A stretch of 64,000 nucleotides of DNA from Siphonodentalium dalli (Eukaryota > Mollusca > Scaphopoda > Gadilida > Siphonodentaliidae). Both the position numbers and the translations under genes were made by a program. Every line of letters starts with the position of its first letter. Positions within the stretch are counted from its first letter, which is position 1. The notes beneath the pieces are model-generated. The model searched no databases. It was not told where the DNA came from and saw only the letters and a program-made list of their open reading frames with translations. This document shows positions 20,258-57,572 of the stretch, one piece after another. The stretch is from assembly GCA_032622095.1 (NCBI GenBank), contig CP136061.1, forward strand, positions 40,183,797 to 40,247,796, read 5' to 3'.

Positions 20258-23200
20258 TCCCCCCCCCCCAAAATAAGGTGGCTAAATACATGTCCCCCCA
20301 AATAAGGTGGCTAAATACATGTCCCCCAAATAAGGTGGCTAACTACATGTCCCCCCAAATAAGGTGTCTAAATTCATATCCCCCAAATAAGGTGGCTAAA
20401 TTCATGTCCCCCAAATAAGGTGTCTAAATTCATGTCCCCCCAAATAAGGTGGCTAAATTCATGTCCCCCCGAATAAGGTGGCTAAATTCATGTCCCCCCG
20501 AATAAGGTGGCTAAATTCGTGTCCCCCCAAATAAGGTGGCTAAATTCATGTCCCCCCGAATAAGGTGGCTAAATTCATATCCCCCAAATAAGGTGGCTAA
20601 ATTCATGTCCCCCAAATAAGGTGTCTAAATTCATGTCCCCCCAAATAAGGTGGCTAAATTCATGTCCCCTGAATAAGGTGGCTAAATTCGTGTCCCCCGA
20701 ATAAGGTGGCTAAATTCATGTCCCCCCGAATAAGGTGACTAAATTCATGTCCCCCCGAATAAGGTGGCTAAATTCGTGCCCCCTGAATAAGGTGGCTAAA
20801 TTCGTGTCCCCCGAATAAGGTGGCTAAATTCATGTCCCCCGAATAAGGTGGCTAAATTCATGGCCCCCAAATAAGGTGGCTAAATTCATGTCCCCCAAAT
20901 AAGGTGGCTAAATTCATATCCCCCCGAATAAGGTGGCTAAATTCATGTCCCCCAAATAAGGTGGCTAAATTCATGTCCCCCCGAATAAGGTGGCTAAATT
21001 CGTGTCCCCTGAATCAGGAGGCTAAATACATGTCCCCCAAATAAGGTGGCTAAATTCATGTCCCCCCGAATAAGGTGGCTAAATTCATTTCCCCCGAATT
21101 AGGTGGCTAAATTCATGTCCCCCCGAATAAGGTGGCTAAATTCATGTCCCCCGAATAAGGTGGCTAAATTCATGTCCCCCCGAATAAGGTGGCTAAATTC
21201 GTGTCCCCTGAATCAGGTGGCTAAATTCATGTCCCCCCAAATAAGGTGGCTAAATTCATGTCCCCCCGAATAAGGTGGCTAAATTCATGTCCCCCAAATA
21301 AGGTGGCTAAATTCATGTCCCCCCGAATAAGGTGGCTAAATTCATGTCCCCCCGAATAAGGTGGCTAAATTCATGTCCCCCAAATAAGGTGGCTAAATTC
21401 ATGTCCCCCAAATAAGGTGGCTAAATTCATGTCCGCCAAATAAGGTGTCTAAATTCATGTCCCCCCAAATAAGGTGGCTAAATTCATGTCCCCTGAATAA
21501 GGTGGCTAAATTCGTGTCCCCCAAATAAGGTGGCTAAATTCATGTCCCCCCGAATAAGGTGACTAAATTCATGTCCCCCCGAATAAGGTGGCTAAATTCG
21601 TGCCCCCTGAATAAGGTGGCTAAATTCGTGTCCCCCAAATAAGGTGGCTAAATTCATGTCCCCCGAATAAGGTGGCTAAATTCATGTCGCCCAAATAAGG
21701 TGGCTAAATTCATGTCCCCCAAATAAGGTGGCTAAATTCATGTCCCCCCGAATAAGGTGGCTAAATTCATGGCCCCCAAATAAGGTGGCTAAATTCATGT
21801 CCCCCAAATAAGGTGGCTAAATTCATATCCCCCCAAATAAGGTGGCTAAATTCATGTCCCCCAAATAAGGTGGCTAAATTCATGTCCCTCAAATAAGGTG
21901 GCTAAATTCATGTCCCCCAAATAAGGTGGCTAAATTCATGTCCCCCAAATAAGGTGGCTAAATTCATGTCCCCCCGAATAAGGTGGCTAAATTCGTGTCC
22001 CCTGAATCAGGTGGCTAAATACATGTCCCCCAAATAAGGTGGCTAAATTCATGTCCCCCCGAATAAGGTGGCTAAATTCATGTCCCCCGAATTAGGTGGC
22101 TAAATTCATGTCCCCCCGAATAAGGTGGCTAAATTCATGTCCCCCGAATAAGGTGGCTAAATTCATGTCCCCCCGAATAAGGTGGCTAAATTCGTGTCCC
22201 CTGAATCAGGTGGCTAAATTCATGTCCCCCCAAATAAGGTGGCTAAATTCATGTCCCCCCGAATAAGGTGGCTAAATTCATGTCCCCCAAATAAGGTGGC
22301 TAAATTCATGTCCCCCCGAATAAGGTGGCTAAATTCATGTCTCCCCGAATAAGGTGGCTAAATTCATGTCCCCCAAATAAGGTGGCTAAATTCATGTCCC
22401 CCAAATAAGGTGGCTAAATTCATGTCCCCCCGAATAAGGTGGCTAAATTCATGTCCCCCGAATAAGGTGGCTAAATTCATGTCCACCAAATAAGGTGGCT
22501 AAATTCATGTCCCACCGTATAAGGTGGCTAAATTCATGTCCCCCGTATAAGGTGGCTAAATTCATGTCCCCCAAATAAGGTGGCTAAATTCATGTCCCCC
22601 AAATAAGGTGGCTAAATTCATGTCCCCCAAATAAGGTGGCTAAATTCATGTCCCCCAAATAAGGTGGCTAAATTCATGTCCCCCAAATAAGGTGGCTAAA
22701 TTCATGTCCCCCAAATAAGGTGGCTAAATTCATGTCCCCCCGAATAAGGTGGCTAAATTCATGTCCCACCAAATAAGGTGGCTAAATTCATGTCCCCCAA
22801 ATAAGGTGGCTAAATACATGTCCCCCAAATAAGGTGGCTAAATTCATGTCCCCCCGAATAAGGTGGCTAAATTCATGTCCCCCGAATTAGGTGGCTAAAT
22901 TCATGTCCCCCCGAATAAGGTGGCTAAATTCATGTCCCCCGAATAAGGTGGCTAAATTCATGTCCCCCCGAATAAGGTGGCTAAATTCGTGTCCCCTGAA
23001 TCAGGTGGCTAAATTCATGTCCCCCCAAATAAGGTGGCTAAATTCATGTCCCCCCGAATAAGGTGGCTAAATTCATGTCCCCCAAATAAGGTGGCTAAAT
23101 TCATGTCCCCCCGAATAAGGTGGCTAAATTCATGTCTCCCCGAATAAGGTGGCTAAATTCATGTCCCCCAAATAAGGTGGCTAAATTCATGTCCCCCAAA

Positions 23201-25800
23201 TAAGGTGGCTAAATTCATGTCCCCCCGAATAAGGTGGCTAAATTCATGTCCCCCGAATAAGGTGGCTAAATTCATGTCCACCAAATAAGGTGGCTAAATT
23301 CATGTCCCACCGTATAAGGTGGCTAAATTCATGTCCCCCCGTATAAGGTGGCTAAATTCATGTCCCCCAAATAAGGTGGCTAAATTCATGTCCCCCAAAT
23401 AAGGTGGCTAAATTCATGTCCCCCAAATAAGGTGGCTAAATTCATGTCCCCCAAATAAGGTGGCTAAATTCATGTCCCCCAAATAAGGTGGCTAAATTCA
23501 TGTCCCCCAAATAAGGTGGCTAAATTCATGTCCCCCCGAATAAGGTGGCTAAATTCATGTCCCACCAAATAAGGTGGCTAAATTCATGTCCCCCAAATAA
23601 GGTGGCTAAATTCATGTCCCCCCAAATAAGGTGGCTAAATTCATGTCCCCCCGAATAAGGTGGCTAAATTCATGTCCCCACGAATAAGGTGGCTAAATTC
23701 GTGTCCCCCGAATAAGGTGGCTAAATTCATGTCCCCCGAATAAGGTGGCTAAATTCATGCCCCCCCGAATAAGGTGGCTAAATTCATGCCCCCCGAATAA
23801 GGTGGCTAAATTCATGTCCCCCGAATAAGGTGGCTAAATTCATGTCCCCCAAATAAGGTGGCTAAATTCATGTCCCCCGAATAAGGTGGCTAAATTCATG
23901 CCCCCCGAATAAGGTGGCTAAGTTCATGTCCCCCAAATAAGGTGGCTAAATTCATGTCCCCCCGAATAAGGCGGCTAAATTCATGTCCCCTGAATCAGGT
24001 GGCTAAATTCGTGTCCCCCGAATAGGTGGCTAAATTCATGTCCCCCGAATAAGGTGGCTAAATTCATGCCCCCCGAATAAGGTGGCTAAATTCATGTCCC
24101 CCAAATAAGGTGGCTAAATTCATGTCCCCCGAATAAGGTGGCTAAATTCATGTCCCCCAAATAAGGTGGCTAAATTCATGTCCCCCCGAATAAGGTGGCT
24201 AAATTCATGTCCCCCAAATAAGGTGGCTAAATTAATGTCCCCCCGAATAAGGTGGCTAAATTCATGTCCCCCGAATAAGGTGGCTAAATTCATGCCCCCC
24301 GAATAAGGTGGCTAAATTCATGTCCCCCAAATAAGGTGGCTAAAATCATGTCCCCCCGAATAAGGTGGCTAAATTCGTGTCCCCTGAATCAGGTGGCTAA
24401 ATTCATGTCCCCCCAAATAAGGTGGCTAAATTCATGTCCCCCCGAATAAGGTGGCTAAATTCATGTCCCCCCAAATAAGGTGGCTAAATTCATGTCCCCA
24501 CGAATAAGGTGGCTAAATTCGTGTCCCCCGAATAAGGTGGCTAAATTCATGTCCCCCGAATAAGGTGGCTAAATTCATGCCCCCCGAATAAGGTGGCTAA
24601 ATTCATGCCCCCCGAATAAGGTGGCTAAATTCATGTCCCCCGAATAAGGTGGCTAAATTCATGTCCCCCGAATAAGGTGGCTAAATTCATGTCCCCCGAA
24701 TAAGGTGGCTAAATTCATGACCCCCGAATAAGGTGGCTAAATTCATGTCCCCCGAATAAGGTGGCTAAATTCATGTCCCCCAAATAAGGTGGCTAAATTC
24801 ATGTCCCCCAAATAAGGTGGCTAAATTCATGTCCCCCCCGAATAAGGTGGCTAAATTCGTGTCCCCCAAATAAGGTGGCTAAATTCATGTCCCCCCGAAT
24901 AAGGTGGCTAAATTCGTGTCCCCCAAATAAGGTGGCTAAATTCATGTTCCCCCGAATAAGGTGGCTAAATTCATGTCCCCCCCAAATAAGGTGGCTAAAT
25001 TCATGTCCCCCAAATAAGGTGGCTAAATTCATGTCCCCCAAATAAGGTGGCTAAATTCATGTCCCCCAAATAAGGTGGCTAAATTCATGTCCCCCAAATA
25101 AGGTGGCTAAATTCATGTCCCCCCGAATAAGGTGGCTAAATTCGTGTCCCCCAAATAAGGTGGCTAAATTCATGTCCCCCGAATAAGGTGGCTAAATTCA
25201 TGTCCCCCAAATAAGGTGGCTAAATTCATGTCCCCCCGAATAAGGTGGCTAAATTCATGTCCCCCCGAATAAGGCGGCTAAATTCATGTCCCCTGAATCA
25301 GGTGGCTAAATTCTTGTCCCCCGAATAGGTGGCTAAATTCATGTCCCCCGAATAAGGTGGCTAAATTCATGCCCCCCGAATAAGGTGGCTAAATTCATGT
25401 CCCCCAAATAAGGTGGCTAAATTCATGTCCCCCCGAATAAGGTGGCTAAATTCATGTCCCCCAAATAAGGTGGCTAAATTAATGTCCCCCCGAATAAGGT
25501 GGCTAAATTCATGTCCCCCGAATAAGGTGGCTAAATTCATGCCCCCCGAATAAGGTGGCTAAATTCATGTCCCCCAAATAAGGTGGCTAAATTCATGTCC
25601 CCCCCGAATAAGGTGGCTAAATTCGTGTCCCCTGAATCAGGTGGCTAAATTCATGTCCCCCCAAATAAGGTGGCTAAATTCATGTCCCCCGAATAAGGTG
25701 GCTAAATTCATGTCCCCCGAATAAGGTGGCTAAATTCATGTCCCCCCAAATAAGGTGGCTAAATTCATGTCCCCCGAATAAGGTGGATAAATTCTCCTGA
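20258..25800. repeat. 5.5-kb minisatellite, ~28-bp unit
   Basis: Roughly 190-200 tandem copies of ATAAGGTGGCTAAATTCATG plus a run of 4-7 C and AA or GA. Variants mark higher-order blocks: TAAATACATG followed by the same order of units recurs at about 21022, 22015 and 22810. It lies in the large F-box gene intron. The minus open frame at 24799-25041 is a by-product. Confidence 0.97.
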
Positions 25801-29087: not shown

Positions 29088-31490
29088 TGCTTCCAAATAT
29101 TAGGAAGTTAATATTGCCACAAGGAAGTTAATAGTGCCACTAGGAAGTTGATATTGCCACTAGGAAGTTGATAGTGACACTAAGAAGTTAATATTGCCAC
29201 TAGGAAGTTGATAGCACAACTAGGAAGTTGATATTGCCACTAGGAAGTTAATAGTGTCACTAGGAAGTTGATAGTGCCACTAGGAAGTTGATAATGCCAC
29301 TAGGAAGTTGATAGCGCCACTAGGAAGTTAATATTGCCACTAGGAAGTTGATAGCGCCACTAGGAAGTTGATAGTGCCACCAGGAAGTTGATAATGCCAC
29401 TAGGAAGTTGATAATGCCACTAGGAAGTTGACAGCGGCACTAGGAAGTTGATAGTGCCACTAGGAAGTTGACAGCGGCACTAGGAAGTTGATAGAGCCAC
29501 GATGAAGCTGATAGTGCCACTATGAAGTTGATCGTGCCACTAGGAAGTTGATAATGCCACTAGTAAGTTGATAGTGCCACTAGGAAGTTGATAGTGCCTC
29601 TAGGAATGTGATAGTGCCACTAAGAAGTTGATATTGCCAATATGAAGGTGATAGAGCCACTAGGAAGTTAATAGCGCCACTAGGAAGTTGATAGCGCCAC
29701 TAGGAAGTTGATAGTGCCACTAGGAAGTTGATAGTGCCACTAGGAAGTTGATAATGCCACTAGGAAGTTGATAATGCCACTAGGAAGTTGACAGCGCCAC
29801 TAGGAAGTTGATAGTGCCACTAGGAAGTTGATAGTGCCACCATGAAGTTGATAGAGCCACTAGGAAGCTGATAGTGCCACTATGAAGTTGACCGTGCCAC
29901 TAGGAAGTTGATAATGCCAGTAGGAAGTTGATCGTGCCACTAGGAAGTTGATAATGCCACTAGGAAGTTGATAGTGCCACTAGGAAGTTGATAGTGCCAC
30001 TAGGAATGTGATAGTGCCACTAGGAAGTGGATAGTGCCACTATGAAGTTGATAGAGCCACTAGGAAGCTGATAGTGCCACTATGAAGTTGATCGTGCCAC
30101 TAGGAAGCTGATAGTGCCACTATGAAGTTGATCATGCCACTAGGAAGTTGATAATGTCACTAGGAAGTTGATAGTGCCACTATGAAGTTGATAGTGCCAC
30201 TAGGAATGTGATAGTGCCACTAGGAAGTTGATATTGCCACTAGGAAGTTGATAGTGCCACTAAGAAGTTGATAGCGCCACTAGGAAGTTAATATTGCCAC
30301 TAGGAAGTTAATAGTGCCACTAGGAAGTTGATATTGCCACTAGGAAGTTGATAGTGCCACTAGGAAGTTAATATTGCCACTAGGAAGTTGATAGCACCAC
30401 TAGGAAGTTGATATTGCCACTAGGAAGTTAATAGTTTCACTAGGAAGTTGATAGTGCCACTAGGAAGTTGATAGTGCAATAAGGAAGTTGATAGCGCCAC
30501 TAGGAAGTTGATAGCGCCACTAGGAAGTTGATAGTGCCACTAGGAAGTTGATAGTGCCACTAGGAAGTTGATAATGCCACTAGGAAGTTGATAATGCCAC
30601 TAGGAAGTTGACAGCGCCACTAGGAAGTTGATAGCGCCACTAGGAAGTTGATAATGCCACTAGGAAGTTGACAGCGCCACTAGGAAGTTGATAGTGCCAC
30701 TAGGAAGTTGATAGTGCCACTATGAAGTTGATAGAGCCACTAGGAAGCTGATAGTGCCATTATGAAGTTGATAATGCCACTAGGAAGTTGACAGCGCCAC
30801 TAGGAAGTTGATAGTGCCACTAGGAAGTTGATAGTGCCACTATGAAGTTGATAGAGCCACTAGGAAGCTGATAGTGCCACTATGAAGTTGATCGTGCCAC
30901 TAGGAAGTTGAGAATGCCACTAGGAAGTTGATAGTGCCACTAGGAAGTTGATAATGCCACTAGGAAGTTGATAATGCCACTAGGAAGTTGACAGCGCCAC
31001 TAGGAAGTTGATAGCGCCACTAGGAAGTTGATAATGCCAATAGGAAGTTGACAGCGCCACTAGGAAGTTGATAGTGCCACTAGGAAGTTGATAGTGCCAC
31101 TATGAAGTTGATAGAGCCACTAGGAAGCTGATAGTGCCACTATGCAGTTGATCGTGCCACTAGGAAGTTGAGAATGCCACTAGGAAGTTGATAGTGCCAC
31201 TGGGAAGTTGATAGTGCCACTAGGAATGTGATAGTGCCACTAGGAAGTTGATATTGCCAATAGGAATGTGATAGTGCCACTAGGAAGTTGATAGTGCCAC
31301 TATGAAGTTGATAGAGCCACTAGGAAGCTGACAGTGCCACTATGAAGTTGATCGTGCCACTAGGAAGTTGAGAATGCCACTAGGAAGTTGATAGTGCCAC
31401 TAGGAAGTTGATAGTGCCACTAGGAATGTGATAGTGCCACTAGGAAGTTGATATTGCCAATAGGAAGGTGATAGAGCCACTAGGAAGTTG
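29088..31490. repeat. 2.4-kb minisatellite, 20-bp unit
   Basis: About 120 tandem copies of TAGGAAGTTGATAGTGCCAC with point variants at a few positions. Blocks of variants recur (for example TAGAGCCAC then AAGCTG then ATCGTGCC), indicating higher-order duplication. Confidence 0.97.
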
Positions 31491-40794: not shown

Positions 40795-43606
40795 TATCTG
40801 AACATCTGTATGCATATGCTTGTCAATGTTATCATCTGTATACATATGCTCGTCAATGTTATCATCTGTATGCATATGCTCGTCAATTGTTATATGTATG
40901 CATATGCTCGTCAATGTTTATCATCTGTATGCATATGCTCGTCAATGTTATCATCTGTATGCATATGCTTGTCAATGTTGTCATCTGTATGCATATGCTT
41001 GTCAATGTTATCATCTGTATACATATGCTTGTCAATGTTATCATCGGTATGCATATGCTTGTCAATGTTATCATCTGTATGCATATGCTTGTCAATGTTA
41101 TCATCTGTATACATATGTTTGTCAATGTTATCATCTGTATGCATATGCTTGTCAATGTTATCATCTGTATGCATATGCTTGTCAATGTTATCATCTGTAT
41201 GCATATGCTTGTCAATGTTATCATCTGTATGCATATGCTCGTCAATTGTTATCTGTATGCATATGCTCGTCAATGTTTATCATCTGTATACATATGCTCG
41301 TCAATGTTATCATCTGTATACATATGCTTGTCAATGTTATCATCTGTATACATATGCTTGTCAATGTTATCATCTGTATGCATATGCTCGTCAATTGTTA
41401 TCTGTATGCATATGCTCGTCAATGTTATCATCTGTATACATATGCTTGTCAATGTTATCATCTGTATACATATGCTCGTCAATGTTATCATCTGTATGCA
41501 TATGCTTGTCAATGTTATCATCTGTATACATATGCTTGTCAATGTTATCATCTGTATACATATGCTCGTCAATGTTTATCATCTGTATACATATGCTCGT
41601 CAATGTTATCATCTGTATGCATATGCTCGTCAATGTTATCATCTGTATGCATATGCTCGTCAATGTTATCATCTGTATACATATGCTCGTCAATGTTATC
41701 ATCTGTATACATATGCTTGTCAATGTTATCATCTGTATACATATGCTCGTCAATGTTATCATCTGTATGCATATGCTCGTCAATTGTTATCTGTATGCAT
41801 ATGCTCGTCAATGTTATCATCTGTATACATATGCTTGTCAATGTTATCATCTGTATACATATGCTCGTCAATGTTATCATCTGTATACATATGCTTGTCA
41901 ATGTTATCATCTGTATGCATATGCTCGTCAATGTTATCTGTATGCATATGCTCGTCAATGTTTATCATATGTATACATAAGCTTGTCAATGTTATCATCT
42001 GTATACATAAGCTTGTCAATGTTATCATCTGTATACATAAGCTTGTCAATGTTATCATCTGTATACATAAGCTTGTCAATGTTATCATCTGTATGCATAT
42101 GCTCGTCAATGTTATCATCTGTATGCATATGCTCGTCAATGTTATCATCTGTATACATATGCTTGTCAATGTTATCATCTGTATACATATGCTCGTCAAT
42201 GTTATCATCTGTATACATACGCTCGTCAATGTTATCATCTGTATGCATATGCTCGTCAATGTTATCATCTGTATGCATACGCTCGTCAATGTTATCATCT
42301 GTATGCATATGCTCGTCAATGTTATCATCTGTATGCATACGCTCATCAATGTTTATCATCTGTATACATAAGCTTGTCAATGTTATCATCTGTATGCATA
42401 TGCTCGTCAATGTTATTATCTGTATGCATATGCTCGTCAATGTTGTTATCTGTATGCATATGCTCATCAATGTTATCATCTGTATGCATATGCTCGTCAA
42501 TGTTATCATCTGTATGCATATGCTCGTCAATGTTATCATCTGTATGCATATGCTCGTCAATGTTATCATCTGTATACATATGCTCGTCAATGTTATCATC
42601 TGTATACATATGCTTGTCAATGTTATCATCTGTATACATATGCTCGTCAATGTTATCATCTGTATACATATGCTCGTCAATGTTATCATCTGTATGCATA
42701 TGCTCGTCAATGTTATCATCTGTATGCATATGCTCGTCAATGTTATCATCTGTATGCATACGCTCGTCAATGTTATCATCTGTATACATATGCTTGTCAA
42801 TATTATCATCTGTATGCATACGCTCATCAATGTTTATCATCTGTATACATAAGCTTGTCAATGTTATCATCTGTATACATATGCTCGTCAATGTTATCAT
42901 CTGTATACATATGCTCGTCAATGTTATCATCTGTATGCATATGCTCGTCAATGTTATCATCTGTATGCATATGCTCGTCAATGTTATCATCTGTATGCAT
43001 ATGCTCGTCAATGTTATCATCTGTATGCATATGCTCATCAATGTTATCATCTGTATGCATATGCTCATCAATGTTATCATCTGTATGCATATGCTCGTCA
43101 ATGTTATCATCTGTATGCATATGCTCATCAATGTTATCATCTGTATGCATATGCTCATCAATGTTATCATCTGTATGCATATGCTCATCAATGTTATCAT
43201 CTGTATGCATATGCTCGTCAATGTTATTATCTGTATGCATATGCTCGTCAATGTTATCATCTGTATGCATATGCTCGTCAATGTTATCATCTGTATGCAT
43301 ATGCTCGTCAATGTTATCATCTGTATGCATATGCTCGTCAATGTTATCATCTGTATACATATGCTCGTCAATGTTATCATCTGTATGCATATGCTCATCA
43401 ATGTTATCATCTGTATGCATATGCTCGTCAATTGTTATCTGTATGCATATGCTCGTCAATGTTATCATCTGTATGCATATGCTCATCAATGTTATCATCT
43501 GTATGCATATGCTCGTCAATGTTATCATCTGTATGCATATGCTCGTCAATGTTATCATCTGTATGCATATGCTCGTCAATGTTATCATCTGTATGCATAT
43601 GTCATG
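40795..43606. repeat. 30-bp minisatellite, main block (2.8 kb)
   Basis: Roughly 95 copies of the 30-bp unit with G/A, C/T and CTCG/CTTG variants, rare 27-bp and 31-bp units, and higher-order duplication (the TTTATCATCTGTATACATAAG junction recurs at about 42352 and 42832, 480 bp apart). Because 30 is divisible by 3 and the unit lacks stops in several frames, very long open frames arise on both strands. They are not genes. Confidence 0.97.
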
Positions 43607-47090: not shown

Positions 47091-48090
47091 ATTACTGTGA
47101 TAAGTGCGGATGACAGACTTAATGTCAATATTATGCTCAAAGATATTATAAAACAGCTATTTATAAATTTTGATTGATTTTGTTACTTCAGCCTGTGTAG
47201 TAATTTCACTCAAACGACTAGTGTGTTCCCGATAGCTTGCATGACGTAAATGATGTCATGCACAAAAAGCCAGTCGGTACAACAACAATAATTCATTAAT
47301 TCAACATCATATTCTATTGAGTAGATGACTAACTAGCATTGGTGACTAGCGTAGTCTCCCCTACAGTCTGGAGTACAATGGTAACACAGAGTGTCAGCTA
47401 GGGATTGAGGGAATGGGACCACTATAGTCGCTGGGGGGGAAATGTCAGCCCTAGCAACTAACTGCAAATATTTAATATCAGTCGATAATTTAAGCCCAAA
47501 TTCTCATGAATGTAGTCTATGGTATAATGAGTGATATTTTAAGCCCCCCCCCCCATTCACATGAATGTACTTCATGGTAATATGAGTGATAATTTAAGCC
47601 GACATTCTCATGAATTTAGTCTATGGTAATATGAGACAAGGAAACTGCATAATAATGATTTTGTTGTAATTGTTTATTTTGTGAACTTAAGTAGAGCAAA
47701 CATTACTATGTCCAACTTCACTACATTCATGAATATTTTTATACTGTGCAATATTCGCACTTCAGTGGCTAACATTGTATTACTTGACAATGTTATCGTA
47801 ACGTAACAAGGCAGAATCAACCACCTGGTTTTTAGCGATGTCCACTTCGATATGAGCAGTCCTGAAGAGAATTATTTTTTCTGGAAAATATTCCACTAGT
47901 AGTCAGCGTTAATAAAAATAAAATTATCTTTGTTTACCATTCCCTGTTGGTTATATTTAGTTGGAGAGCTATGTGATGTAGACATTAATCTGTGGATGGG
48001 GTATGGAAATATGTCAGATGGGAAACTTTGGCTTGGGGAAGGGGACCCTAAAAGCTGCCCTCAAGAGGACACCCTGAATAACAGTAGATG
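47091..48090. other. Downstream of SETDB1, nothing else recognised
   Basis: Includes a small tandem of the ATTCTCATGAATGTAGTCTA type at about 47490-47635, perhaps 60 bp x 3. It probably contains the SETDB1 3' UTR and transcript end. Confidence 0.5.
47673..47678 (-). promoter_or_regulatory. Possible polyadenylation signal for SETDB1
   Basis: Plus-strand TTTATT reads AATAAA on the minus strand, about 570 bp after the stop codon. Such hexamers are common in AT-rich DNA and no other element supports it. Confidence 0.2.
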
Positions 48091-48099
48091 CCCCTATGG

Positions 48100-48250
48100 T
48101 GGGGCATTTTCCTGCAACATTGGAGTCTGGGGTCCCACAGTAACAATAGTAGACTAGAGTAGTCTGCCCTTACAGTCTGGCATGCCACAGTAACAGTAGA
48201 GGACTAGAGTAATCTGCCCCTAGTCTGGAGTCCCACAGTAACAATAGAGG
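48100..48250 (-). repeat. Tandem ~50-bp copies of the SETDB1 stop-codon region in the putative 3' UTR
   Basis: Plus-strand ACTAGAG, which includes the reverse complement of the stop codon, recurs at 48251, 48203 and 48153. Each is followed by diverged copies of the CYCGTPDC-coding segment. A more diverged, longer copy near 48090-48150 resembles sequence further into the exon. These copies lie after the stop codon, so they should be 3' UTR. A weakly similar fragment may exist near 47350. Confidence 0.8.
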
Positions 48251-48251
48251 A

Positions 48252-48369
48252 CTAGAGTAGTCTGCCCCTGCAGTCTGGCGTGCCACAGTAACAGTAAAGG
48301 CGCTTTCCTGGAACACTTCCCACTTCATAGTTGTAATCCCATGTTAATTCTGTACCAGCTCTGATAAAT
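48252..48369 (-). CDS. SETDB1: SETDB1 terminal coding exon: end of SET and post-SET
   Basis: The acceptor is CATTACAG before 48369. The first base completes the Gln codon begun in the exon at 50902; 38 codons and TAG follow. It encodes [14 protein letters not shown], carrying the tyrosine-containing end of the SET catalytic site, then the post-SET zinc-binding CYCGTPDC (CxCx4C) and the family's terminal CRGRLL. The stop falls just after RLL, as in known SETDB1 proteins. The last ~50 bp of this exon, stop codon included, are repeated in the DNA just beyond it. Confidence 0.96.
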
Positions 48370-50901: not shown

Positions 50902-50990
50902 TGTCCAGCGAAGAAAGCGACCCAAGGAAATCTGAGATCATGTGTGTCCACAAAGACGTTCTGCACAAACACATTCGGAGAACAGCTATG
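50902..50990 (-). CDS. SETDB1: SETDB1 exon: HSCSPN segment of the SET domain
   Basis: This 89-bp exon has acceptor TTTTTGCAG before 50990 and donor CA|GTAAGT at 50901. It encodes 29 codons plus two bases. It starts HSCSPN and continues through [19 protein letters not shown], which is almost invariant in SETDB1 as I recall it. HSCSPN, with the preceding GRYLN, makes the cofactor- and substrate-binding knot of the SET fold. The open frame upstream (to 51188) is intron: the polypyrimidine tract and CAG sit directly before the His codon, and the protein stops matching the family there. Confidence 0.96.
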
Positions 50991-51839: not shown

Positions 51840-54340
51840 TGTATTACAGTCAATGGAGCGATTAGGAATGTGGAAAGTTGAATGTCTAATACTAGTTTAT
51901 AGACATGAAGAGAAAAGTAAAATCCAAGATGGCTGCTGGCGGCCATGTTTTCGGCCGAATGACCCCAAAATGATTGTATCCCATCTACATGTCATCGTTA
52001 ACATCCATGACAAATTTTATGACGATCAGACTAAAGGTACGACCTGTAGCCTATGCTAAAGAATTTAGTCATACAAAGAGTAAAATCCAAGATGGCTGCT
52101 GGCGGCCATGTTTTTTGGCCGAATGACACCAAAATGACTTGTTCCCATCTACATGTCATTATTAACATCTATGACAAATTTTATGACGATCAGACTAAAG
52201 GTACGACCTGTAGCCCATGCTAAAGAATTTAGTCATACAAAGAGTAAAATCCAATATTAACAACCATGACAAATTTCATGATGATCAGACGAACAGTACG
52301 ACCTGTGGCCCATGCTAATGGATTAAATTTTGAAATCCAAGATGGCCACTGGCGGCCATGTTTTTTGTCCGAATGACCCCAAAATGACTCGTTCCCATTT
52401 ACATTCCAATTTCAACAGCCATGACAAATTTTATGATGATCAGACTAAATGTACGACCTGTAGCCCGTGCTAAAGGATTTAGTCATACAAAGAGTAAAAT
52501 CAAAGATGGCTGCTGGCGGCCATGTTTTTCTGCCGAATGACCCCAAAATTACTCGTTCCCATTTACATTCCAATTTCAACAGCCATGACAAATTTTATGA
52601 TGATCAGACTAAAGGTACGACCTGTAGCCCGTGCTAAAGGATTTAGTCATACAAAGAGTAAAATCAAAGATGGCTGCTGGCGGCCATGTTTTTCTGCCGA
52701 ATGACCCCAAAATGACTCGTTCCCATCTACATGTCATTATTAACATTCACGACAAATTTTATGATGATCAGACTAAAGGTACAACCTGTAGCCCGTGCTA
52801 AAGGATTTAGTCATACAAAGAGTAAAATCCAAGATGGCTGCTGGCGACCATGTTTTTTGGCCGAATGACCCCAAAATTACTCGTTCCCATCTACATGTCA
52901 TTGTTAACATCCATGACAAATTTTATGATGATCAGACGAACAGTACGACCTGTGGCCCGTGCTAATGGATTACATTTTGAAATCCAAGATGGCCACTGGC
53001 GGCCATGTTTATTGGCCGAATGAGCCCAAAATTACTCGTTCCCATCTACATTCCAATTTCAACAGCCATGACAAATTTTATGATGATCAGACTAAAGGTA
53101 CGGCCTGTAGCCCGTGCTAAAGGATTTAGTCATACAAAGAGTAAAATCCAAGATGGCTGCTGGCGGCCATGTTTTTTGGCCGATTGACCCCAAAATGACT
53201 CGTTCCCATCTACATGTCAATATTAACATCCATGACAAATTTGATGATGATCAGACTAAAGGTACGACCTGTAGCCCGTGCTAAAGAATTTAGTCATACA
53301 AAGAGTAAAATCCAAGAAGGCTGCTGGCCGCCATGTTTTTTGGCCGAATGACCCCAAAATTACTCGTTCCCATCTACATGTCAATATTAACATCCATGAC
53401 AAATTTCATGATGATCAGACGAACAGTACGACCTGTGGCCCGTGCTAATGGATTGAATTTTGAAATCCAAGATGGCCGCTGGCGGCCATGTTTTTTGTCC
53501 GAATGACCCCAAAATGACTCGTTCCTATCTACATTCCAATTTCAACAGCCATGACAAATTTTATGATGATCGGACTAAAGGTACGACCTGTAGCCCGTGC
53601 TAAAGGATTTAGTCATACAAAGAGTGAAATCAAAGATGCCTGCTGGCGGCCATGTTTTTTGGCCGAATGACCCCAAAATGACTCGTTCCCATCTACATGT
53701 CATTATTAACATTCTTGACAAATTTTATGATGATCAGACTAAAAGTACGACCTGTAGCCCGTGCTAAAGAATTTAGTCATACAAAGAGTAAAATCCAAGA
53801 TGGCTGCTGGCGGCCATGTTTTTGGGCCGAATGACCCCAAAATTACTCGTTCACATCTACATGTCAATATTAACATCCATGACAAATTTCATGACGATCA
53901 GACAAACAGCACGCCCTGTAGCCCGTGCTAATGGATTGAATTTTGAAATGCAAGATGGCCACTGGCGGCCATGTTTTTTTACCGAATGACCCCAAAATTA
54001 ATCATTCTGGTCTAAATGTTGATGTCAACAGCTATGACAAATTTCATAATGATCCGACCAAAGGTACAACCTGTAGACTGCATTGTTGACGCCTTACGTA
54101 CACACGTACACACGGACGACGGACGACAAAGCCATGGCAATAGCTCAAACTTTACAAAGTAAAGTTGAGCTAAAAAGGGAAATAACTCCATAAAAGAACA
54201 TCGGATCAAACCCAGAATTGCAGAGCACCTGTGTTCTTGGTTGAGACAACTACACACCAAGTTTCAATCAAATCGTTTGATCATTACTGGACGGACGCAC
54301 GGACGCGGCTGATTACAATAGTCCCCCAAAAATAAATTAT
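51840..54340. repeat. Tandem ~180-bp satellite with AAGATGGC/GGCGGCCATG core
   Basis: About 12 copies of a module with ATCCAAGATGGCTGCTGGCG, GGCCATGTTTTTTGGCCGAA, ACATGACAAATTTTATGATG-like and GTACGACCTGTAGCCCGTGC. Ends in an ACGGACGACGGACGAC tract and then an element ending GTCCCCCAAAAATAAATTAT. Related single modules occur at 60940-61400 and 62130-62330. Confidence 0.88.
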
Positions 54341-55342: not shown

Positions 55343-56293
55343 GAATACTTACATTAAGATATCTTCCGAGGTTACCATGAATACTTACATTAAGATATCT
55401 CCCGAGGTTACCATGGATACTCACATTAAGATATCTTCTGAGGTTACCATAGATACTTACATTAAGATATCTCCCGAGGTTACCAAGGATACTCACATTA
55501 AGATATCTTCTGAGGTTACCATGAATACTTACATTAAGATATCTCCCGAGGTTACCATGAATACTCACATTAAGATATCTTCTGAGGTTACCATGGATAC
55601 TCACATTAAGATATCTTCTGAGGTTACCATGAATACTTACATTAAGATATCTCCCGAGGTTACCATGGATACTCACATTAAGATATCTTCTGAGGTTACC
55701 ATGAATACTTACATTAAGATATCTCCCGAGGTTACCATGGATACTCACATTAAGATATCTTCTGAGGTTACCATAAATACTTACATTAAGATATCTCCCG
55801 AGGTTACCATGAATACTTACATTAAGATATCTTCTGAGGTTACCATGAATACTTACATTAAGATATCTCCCGAGGTTACCATGGATACTCACATTAAGAT
55901 ATCTTCTGAGGTTACCATGAATACTTACATTAAGATATCTTCCGAGATTACCATAGATACTAACATTAAGATATCTTCCGTTCCGAGGTTACCATAGATA
56001 CTAACATTAAGATATCTTCCGAGGTTACCATGGATACTTACATTAAGATATCTTCTGAGTTTACCATGGATACTTACATTAAGATATCTTCCGAGGTTAC
56101 CATGGATACTTACATTAAAAAATCTTTCGCGGTTACCATGGATACTCACATTAAGATATCTTCTGAGGTTACCATGAATACTTACATTAAGATATTTTCT
56201 GAGGTTACCATTGATACTTACATTAAGATATCAACCGAGGTTACCATGGATACTTCCATTGAGATATCTTCCGAGATTACCATGGATACTTAC
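55343..56293 (-). repeat. 36-bp minisatellite made of a SETDB1 exon end plus its 5' splice site
   Basis: There are about 26 tandem copies of a 36-bp unit (12 codons). Read on the minus strand, each begins with a splice-donor-like GTAAGT or GTGAGT, continues ATCCATGG, and ends with the GRYLN-coding end of the adjacent exon. Two subtypes roughly alternate (NLGRYLN with GTAAGT, NLRRYLN with GTGAGT), so part of the array has a 72-bp higher-order period. Translation gives VSIHGNLGRYLN repeats. Reading straight on from the exon is open for only about two units: an AGA-to-TGA change near 56231 stops it, and a small insertion near 55980 shifts the frame. One early unit has GGAAGT in place of a donor. 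Confidence 0.95.
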
Positions 56294-56394
56294 ATTAAGA
56301 TATCTTCCGAGGTTACCCATTGATTTGGCATCCATTATAAAGCAGGCTTCATTATCACCAAAATATTCTCGAGTCGTCTTTCGCTTATTTGGTT
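56294..56394 (-). CDS. SETDB1: SETDB1 exon: second SET segment up to GRYLN
   Basis: This 101-bp exon has acceptor TTTTTTTTCCAG before 56394 and donor AAT|GTAAGT at 56293. It enters with two bases (phase 1) and encodes 33 codons. It contains TTREYFGDNEACFIMDAK and ends NLGRYLN. In SET domains, GRYLN followed directly by HSCSPN forms the S-adenosylmethionine pocket and pseudoknot. Here GRYLN ends one exon and HSCSPN starts the next, so the intron splits the motif in phase 0. The last bases of the exon and the donor are the template of the 36-bp array that follows in the intron. Confidence 0.93.
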
Positions 56395-57316: not shown

Positions 57317-57464
57317 CTTTCCTAATCTGTCTCGTCTCGTTTCTGCCTCGCTCTCGGATTCATTGTAATATACAGTGGTTTCTTACCTTTGATAATTTCT
57401 TCCTCGATCTCGTCTGTTTTCTGCCTCGCTCTCGGATTCGTTGTAATATATATTGGTTTCTCAC
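57317..57464 (-). repeat. Tandem copies (about 78 bp) of the exon 3' end with splice donors
   Basis: The PRARQK-coding segment recurs at spacings of 78 bp (plus-strand CTGCCTCGCTCTCGG at 57343, 57421 and 57499). The second copy stays open in frame and ends AAAG|GTAAGA at 57386, a plausible alternative donor in the same phase that would add 26 codons. The third copy has an in-frame TAG shortly before its own AAAG|GTGAGA at 57316, so using it would truncate the protein. Whether the second copy is exon or intron cannot be decided from sequence. Confidence 0.8.
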
Positions 57465-57572
57465 CTTTGATAATTTCTACCTCTATCTCGTCTGTTTTCT
57501 GCCTCGCTCTCGGATCAGGTAGATTCTTGAATCTGTTAGTTTTAGCATGAGCTGACACAGTACTTCTTTTCG
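57465..57572 (-). CDS. SETDB1: SETDB1 exon: end of the SET-domain insert
   Basis: This is a 108-bp exon with acceptor TTTATAG before 57572 and donor AAAG|GTGAGA at 57464. It enters with two bases of a codon, encodes 35 full codons and leaves one base (phase 1). The product is basic then acidic, with segments RARQKTDEIE and EVEIIK, as expected for the low-complexity insert of a bifurcated SET domain. The sequence alone would not name the gene. The link is that its phase-1 end joins exactly to the exon at 56394 (G plus AA makes a Glu codon). The 3' part of the exon, with its donor, is repeated twice downstream at a 78-bp spacing, so the true 3' end could be 57387 instead of 57465. Confidence 0.7.

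Follow-up and report, generated by a model that had tools for sequence, protein, structure and literature searches.

The window analysed here is a stretch of 64,000 nucleotides from the scaphopod mollusc Siphonodentalium dalli (GenBank assembly GCA_032622095.1, contig CP136061.1, positions 40,183,797 to 40,247,796 of the forward strand), and its minus strand carries exons of a SET-domain gene. The exon on which this study centers (56294–56394), whose translation ends in ...MGNLGRYLN, is coding and joins in phase to the next exon, which carries HSCSPN (50902–50990), and then to the last coding exon (48252–48369). The translation of the joined exons matches the C-terminal part of the SET domain (E 2.7e-13, model positions 46–105), and the joined exons also match H3K9-type SET proteins in the PDB. 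On the same strand, a preceding exon (57465–57551), ending in ...RARQKTDEIEVEIIK with the phase-1 donor AAAG|GTGAGA, is placed by its splice signals and its phase match to 56394 rather than by homology. Further upstream, in the coordinates of an extended window, exon ends were read by eye at or near 86070, 83795, 78771, 77679 and 71696, and candidate exons ending near 70514 and near 69400, also read by eye, fit by phase.

A pre-SET domain (E 3.3e-16) is encoded upstream, beyond the window (L001 to L003), and the N-terminal part of the SET domain is recognized upstream at E 0.0045 (model positions 1–43), with a score of 17.8 bits that falls under the cut-off of 22.4. One gene thus encodes both a pre-SET domain and a SET domain that an insert divides, as in a SETDB1-type H3K9 methyltransferase, the parts covered being pre-SET and SET. 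From its motif and from the order pre-SET, split SET, we take the gene to be SETDB1-like. The sequence-only reading had assigned the exon to SETDB1; that it codes for part of a SET domain of H3K9 type is supported by the matches above, while the name SETDB1 draws on motifs typical of the family together with the pre-SET and split SET domains. A search of NCBIfam returned a single match, which was taken as chance (17.5 bits against a cut-off of 550).

Directly downstream of the GRYLN exon lies a 36-bp minisatellite (55343–56293, minus strand), in which the first intron bases, donor included, and the end of the exon are repeated in 26 complete copies, 25 of 36 bp and one of 41 bp, followed by a short partial tail. 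TRF calls the array as 36 bp × 26.9 at 55345–56317. Each unit is composed of the last 24–27 bases of the exon and the first 9–12 bases of the intron. The last 24 bases of the exon recur in the copies either identically or with one or two changes. The unit has no sharp inner edge, as upstream of these 24 bases the exon has ATGGGTAACC and most copies have ATGGTAACC. The donor hexamer is GTAAGT in 15 copies, GTGAGT in eight, GTTAGT in two and GGAAGT in one, such that GT is retained in 25 of the 26. Units 1–5 carry scattered private changes. Unit 9 (55965–56005) is the 41-bp copy, and its five extra bases shift the frame for everything downstream. In units 11–25 the forms CTCAGAAG and CTCGGGAG take turns, the order being broken once, a pattern expected if the array expanded late in steps of 72-bp pairs. 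Unit-by-unit comparison thus bears out the earlier description of a unit made from the exon's own last bases plus the donor, and of about 26 intronic copies that mostly retain GTAAGT or GTGAGT.

The array originated from the exon. A 32-base unit pattern comprising exon end and donor, searched with at most two mismatches in the readable part of the 2.23-Gb assembly, gave 25 matches, all within the array and the adjoining exon end, whereas the reversed control of the pattern gave none in the same assembly. Because the unit is absent elsewhere in the assembly, the array grew from the GRYLN exon, and because this exon encodes a conserved SET motif, the array was derived from the exon and not the other way round. 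The derivation from exon end and donor that had been proposed from the letters of the window therefore agrees with the assembly search. Import from a satellite family was considered and rejected, given that no unit match at up to two mismatches occurs elsewhere in the assembly. Within the window, no tandem copies of the HSCSPN exon (50902–50990) were found.

The unit is 12 codons long, and it had been suggested that the choice of a nearby copy would add VSIHGNLGRYLN, the translation of unit 1, in frame between GRYLN and HSCSPN. This is excluded by a listing of all copies, in which 0 of 26 can be used in frame. Unit 1 is the sole copy otherwise open in frame, but its donor has been lost (GGAAGT, 56252–56257, minus strand), and the 25 copies that bear GT all lie behind an in-frame TGA within unit 2 (56231–56233, minus strand), so every in-frame option is closed. 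Copies beyond the five extra bases of unit 9 are, besides lying behind the TGA, also out of frame. The unit length of 12 codons, the TGA near 56231 and the loss of one early donor were all as claimed in the sequence-only reading, which mentioned neither the joint consequence of the two defects nor the frame shift at unit 9. Hence, although a unit of 12 codons and an open first unit could speak for it, we give almost no credence to an in-frame insertion of 12 residues in the cofactor pocket, which is refuted for the 26 assembled copies, with other GT sites within unit 1 scored by U1 energy alone. Weaker donor-like sites do exist inside units, for example ATG|GTAACC at −5.0 kcal/mol, again by U1 energy scoring alone. 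An allele with a different unit 1 and unit 2 could differ in its in-frame use.

Besides the 36-bp array, the same gene carries three others, two of them at donors that phase supports and the third at a candidate exon. The first has a 78-bp unit in 2.4 copies (57330–57515, minus strand), built from the last bases of the preceding exon together with its donor. An 83/63-bp array (L001 7487–7769) follows the exon ending at 71696, and a 49-bp array (L001 6319–6523) follows the candidate exon near 70514, both again with units made of exon end and donor. In the 78-bp array, copy 1 keeps a strong donor (AAAG|GTAAGA) and is open in frame, adding 26 amino acids, and copy 2 has a stop before its donor. 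Judged from the reading frame, an isoform with 26 additional residues is possible through copy 1. In total, donor arrays occur at four of the ten located donors of the gene, a difference from the control sample described below (Fisher p = 0.009, or p = 0.037 if the 36-bp array that prompted the study is left out) that carries little weight because the gene was chosen.

Tandem repetition is also seen elsewhere in the window. A 50-bp array of 3.6 copies (48124–48300, minus strand) comprises the end of the last coding exon and the start of the 3′ UTR, with an extra partial copy of its unit at 47344–47386. Very long minisatellites lie at 20272–25794 (28-bp unit), 29101–31490 (20-bp unit), 40803–43601 (30-bp unit) and 52252–54076 (164-bp unit).

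The control sample consisted of 180 exon neighbourhoods from other genes, each comprising a coding hit and 600 bases on either side, which were examined with TRF in three batches. The exons were hand-picked from listed match positions before their sequence was known, and included 80 of 88 rows for kinesin, 30 of 75 for myosin, 30 of 39 for CCT, 9 of 10 for proteasome, 24 of 41 for UCH and 7 of 60 for SET. The rows left out were mostly near-identical paralogues, some were stop-rich, and several, though not all, had very long open frames; for UCH, matches ending inside the model were preferred. Arrays were scored if a TRF array spanned the end of the coding hit and held up to inspection by eye, a criterion that took the place of an earlier, pre-set one. 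The script counted 14 arrays spanning the 3′ end. Our final 14 drops L176, a paralogue of L089, and adds L013, whose two copies lie inside a coding hit that overruns the exon. For L089 a period of 67 was entered manually. Some adjacent loci share a little sequence, and flank arrays were deduplicated for the coverage analysis alone.

Arrays of the same kind recur in this genome. Across the three batches, 14 independent donors among 179 start a tandem row; in L013 and L036 the donor was located by eye. In the first batch (80 kinesin and 20 myosin exons), the unit equals exon end plus donor in 11 of 100 cases, such as L052 (30 bp × 14.5), L054 (34 bp × 18.5, reaching the end of the fetched sequence) and L068 (80 bp × 4). 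The second batch (30 CCT, nine proteasome and one SET) gave three cases among 40, all of them CCT. The third (24 UCH, 10 myosin and six SET) gave one among 40, the paralogue L176, and hence 0 of 39 new cases. By family, donor arrays were found at 10 of 80 kinesin, 1 of 29 myosin and 3 of 30 CCT exons, and at none of nine proteasome, 24 UCH and seven SET exons. At the rate of the first two batches (14/140), the chance of 0 in 39 is about 0.016 (0.9 to the power 39), so it seems that either there are differences between families or the early batches happened to give too high a rate. Arrays spanning the acceptor were present in 4 of 180 neighbourhoods (L052, L082, L150 and L154; 2/100, 0/40 and 2/40 per batch), L078 not being counted because its array reaches the pyrimidine tract and the acceptor AG is not copied.

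Two further observations were made in this sample. Upstream of UCH exons there are mirror-image arrays, built from acceptor and exon start, in which the real acceptor is the last of the row (in coding-strand coordinates, L150 1–616, 31 bp × 20, and L154 277–630, 54 bp × 6). In addition, the paralogous myosin exons L089 and L176 have a common 67-bp donor array, which probably predates their duplication, the alternative being a copy made by gene conversion.

Whether donors are hotspots for such arrays depends on the expectation that is chosen. Of the 216,000 flank bases, 14,191 (6.6%) lie in tandem arrays. Intronic points at least 150 bp from coding hits are covered in 11–15 of 180 neighbourhoods at seven of the eight points tested, and the eighth, 150 bp upstream of the hit, is covered in 9 of 180. 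Coverage of donors, at 14–15, is similar, so donors are covered like ordinary intron. However, if an array at a donor can enter the exon by no more than about one unit, only 3.1 cases are expected per 180 versus the 14 observed, which would be an excess of approximately fourfold (Poisson P ~6e-6 for 14 cases or 3e-5 for 13, with loci taken as independent, which exons of the same gene strictly are not). In the 140 exons sampled first, the final 120 bases of the coding hit hold 13 left array edges, compared with 0–7 per 60-base bin over the next 600 bases. Donor arrays outnumber acceptor arrays 14:4 (sign test p = 0.03, rising to 0.06 with L078 included). The donor excess is carried by the first and second batches and is absent in the third.

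Unit lengths divisible by three are found in 9 of 18 donor arrays (the 14 sampled and four of this gene) versus 18 of 81 flank arrays (Fisher p = 0.037), and P = 0.11 when the nine are set against an expectation of one-third; these nine were counted by hand, with L089 taken as 67 bp, and L036 (period 90) shifts the frame between its first two units. The surplus is a weak hint that some copies may sometimes be used. It is conceivable, although we consider it rather doubtful, that in this animal a genome-wide process multiplies 5′ splice sites, reaching about one in 13 sampled donors at roughly four times the level of random seeding, with acceptors at about the background rate. If such a process is real, donor redundancy would be a general and evolving property of genes, brought about by mutational bias at transcribed donors or by selection.

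The copies in the SETDB1-like gene do form a row of near-identical 5′ splice site sequences, as had been stated from the window itself. By U1 duplex energy, 23 of 26 copies equal or surpass the real donor (−7.3 kcal/mol), and such U1 sites number 23.7 per kb in the array versus 0.47 per kb in 10,682 bases of the array intron and the upstream intron. A splicing buffer or U1 snRNP sink, in which U1 would be concentrated at the start of the 5.3-kb intron and would thereby strengthen exon definition or shield the transcript from early polyadenylation, could draw on this concentration of sites, and also on the occurrence of donor-spanning arrays above the one-unit expectation. Nevertheless, the third batch lacks the donor excess, and the donors themselves argue against this role. 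Among the 25 aligned units of the SETDB1-like array, three variants occur in the six donor columns and 16 in the 30 other columns, and mismatches fill 10 of 150 donor cells versus 44 of 750 other cells; the 41-bp unit was excluded from this comparison, the first unit begins with the real donor, and 25 units are few, such that weak selection could be missed. The array of L054, the other row used, has no variants in six donor columns and three in 28 others, whereas L052, L068, L060 and L079 were excluded because the unit register or the donor offset was off. Since donor columns vary like the others, nothing indicates that U1 binding has preserved the copies, and selection on the donor copies is unsupported. 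The sink or buffer that the sequence-only reading had offered is therefore unsupported as well, and we regard it as unlikely.

A related candidate, that arrays compensate for weak donors, fares no better. The donors of array exons are slightly weaker (mean −6.5 versus −7.4 kcal/mol, for 14 array exons and 164 exons of the control sample), a difference that would favor a buffer but is not significant (Mann-Whitney p = 0.15). For L013 and L036 the automatic choice failed to pick the donor, which was assigned by eye.

Alternatively, the copies might serve as alternative donors whose stop codons lead to non-productive transcripts and so lower the output of the gene, a brake resembling a poison exon. 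All 25 GT copies lie behind the in-frame TGA, so any use of them would produce a premature stop, and in human IFI6 the use of downstream repeat donors is reported (PMC4526556). However, the absence of conservation at the donors speaks against this proposal, and the many unit lengths found in unrelated genes make a gene-specific role unneeded. We therefore hold such a brake to be improbable.

What we consider quite probable is a near-neutral expansion, tolerated since the first donor remains and defines the exon, with the copies being simply intron. A short duplication would have spanned the exon end and the 5′ splice site, and slippage or unequal exchange would then have expanded it to the 26 intronic copies. 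The exon-adjacent first donor presumably persists and defines the exon, and a transcript spliced from within the array would gain an in-frame stop and most likely be wasted. We infer use of the first donor, the duplication mechanism and near-neutrality from the arrangement of the locus. In favor of near-neutral expansion are the make-up of the unit from exon end and donor, its confinement to one locus, the lack of any copy usable in frame, the variation of the donor columns and the alternation in units 11–25. Similar arrays at three further donors of this gene and at 14 of the 179 donors sampled also favor it, as does the finding that intronic points are covered by arrays about as often as donors. 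Against it stand the fourfold excess over the one-unit expectation, which plain neutrality does not predict but to which the last batch added no new case in 39, and the surplus of unit lengths divisible by three among donor arrays. The sequence-only reading had named neutral slippage as one option, and this option fits better than a sink or buffer, as the array is not unique in kind.

To our knowledge, exon-end minisatellites with repeated donors, as in IFI6, have been treated as a curiosity. The IFI6 array reportedly has 12-bp units in about 26 copies. The likeness to the array described here is evident, as both are tandem arrays at an exon end whose units carry a splice donor, and structural features of the IFI6 type are found at our locus: the array starts at the exon end, the units hold a donor, and the unit derives from the exon's own boundary. 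The human minisatellite provides several splice donors, and two downstream units are reported to be used as donors to give three mRNA species (PMC4526556). Unlike IFI6, with its used downstream units, the present array can yield no in-frame product from any copy.

Other systems also bear comparison. Internal tandem repeats at exon-intron boundaries have been described in human segmental-duplication genes (PMC2812944). These are likewise boundary minisatellites, with units of about 30 bp and variable copy number, but their effect is to change exons or give rise to introns in genes of recent duplication, whereas the GRYLN exon has stayed as it was and its copies lie in the intron. Introns within tandem repeats can have dual-specific splice sites, for example in human UBC (PMC10809524), where rows of splice sites are also made by tandem repetition; there, however, one site acts as both donor and acceptor, and the UBC repeats are coding, whereas the present array multiplies donors within an intron. 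Intron gain through tandem genomic duplication of AGGT (PMC3443670) similarly involves the duplication of a segment bearing a splice site, although in our case an existing donor was multiplied and no intron was gained. In the open-licence literature we found no report of the frequency of exon-edge minisatellites in any genome, or of their widespread occurrence in one, and nothing relevant in molluscan literature on exon-edge arrays or in literature on U1 decoys.

The 36-bp array of the SETDB1-like gene is thus known in kind and most likely ordinary in itself, and it is of value chiefly for directing attention to a class of arrays that recurs in this genome. Provided that the sampled exons are representative, a single genome would hold many natural copy-number series of near-identical donors. 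RNA reads could then ask which of many equal 5′ splice sites the spliceosome picks, and whether a spare supply of them matters.

A protein search of the readable assembly with the joined exons returned the three exons of the gene itself and five weaker SET matches, the latter all at no more than 51% identity. Elsewhere, SET-domain matches are evenly spaced at C5:4050794-4087878 and C9:74098760-74117972 (intervals of ~4.5–4.7 kb and 6.3 kb), a regularity that suggests tandem gene arrays.
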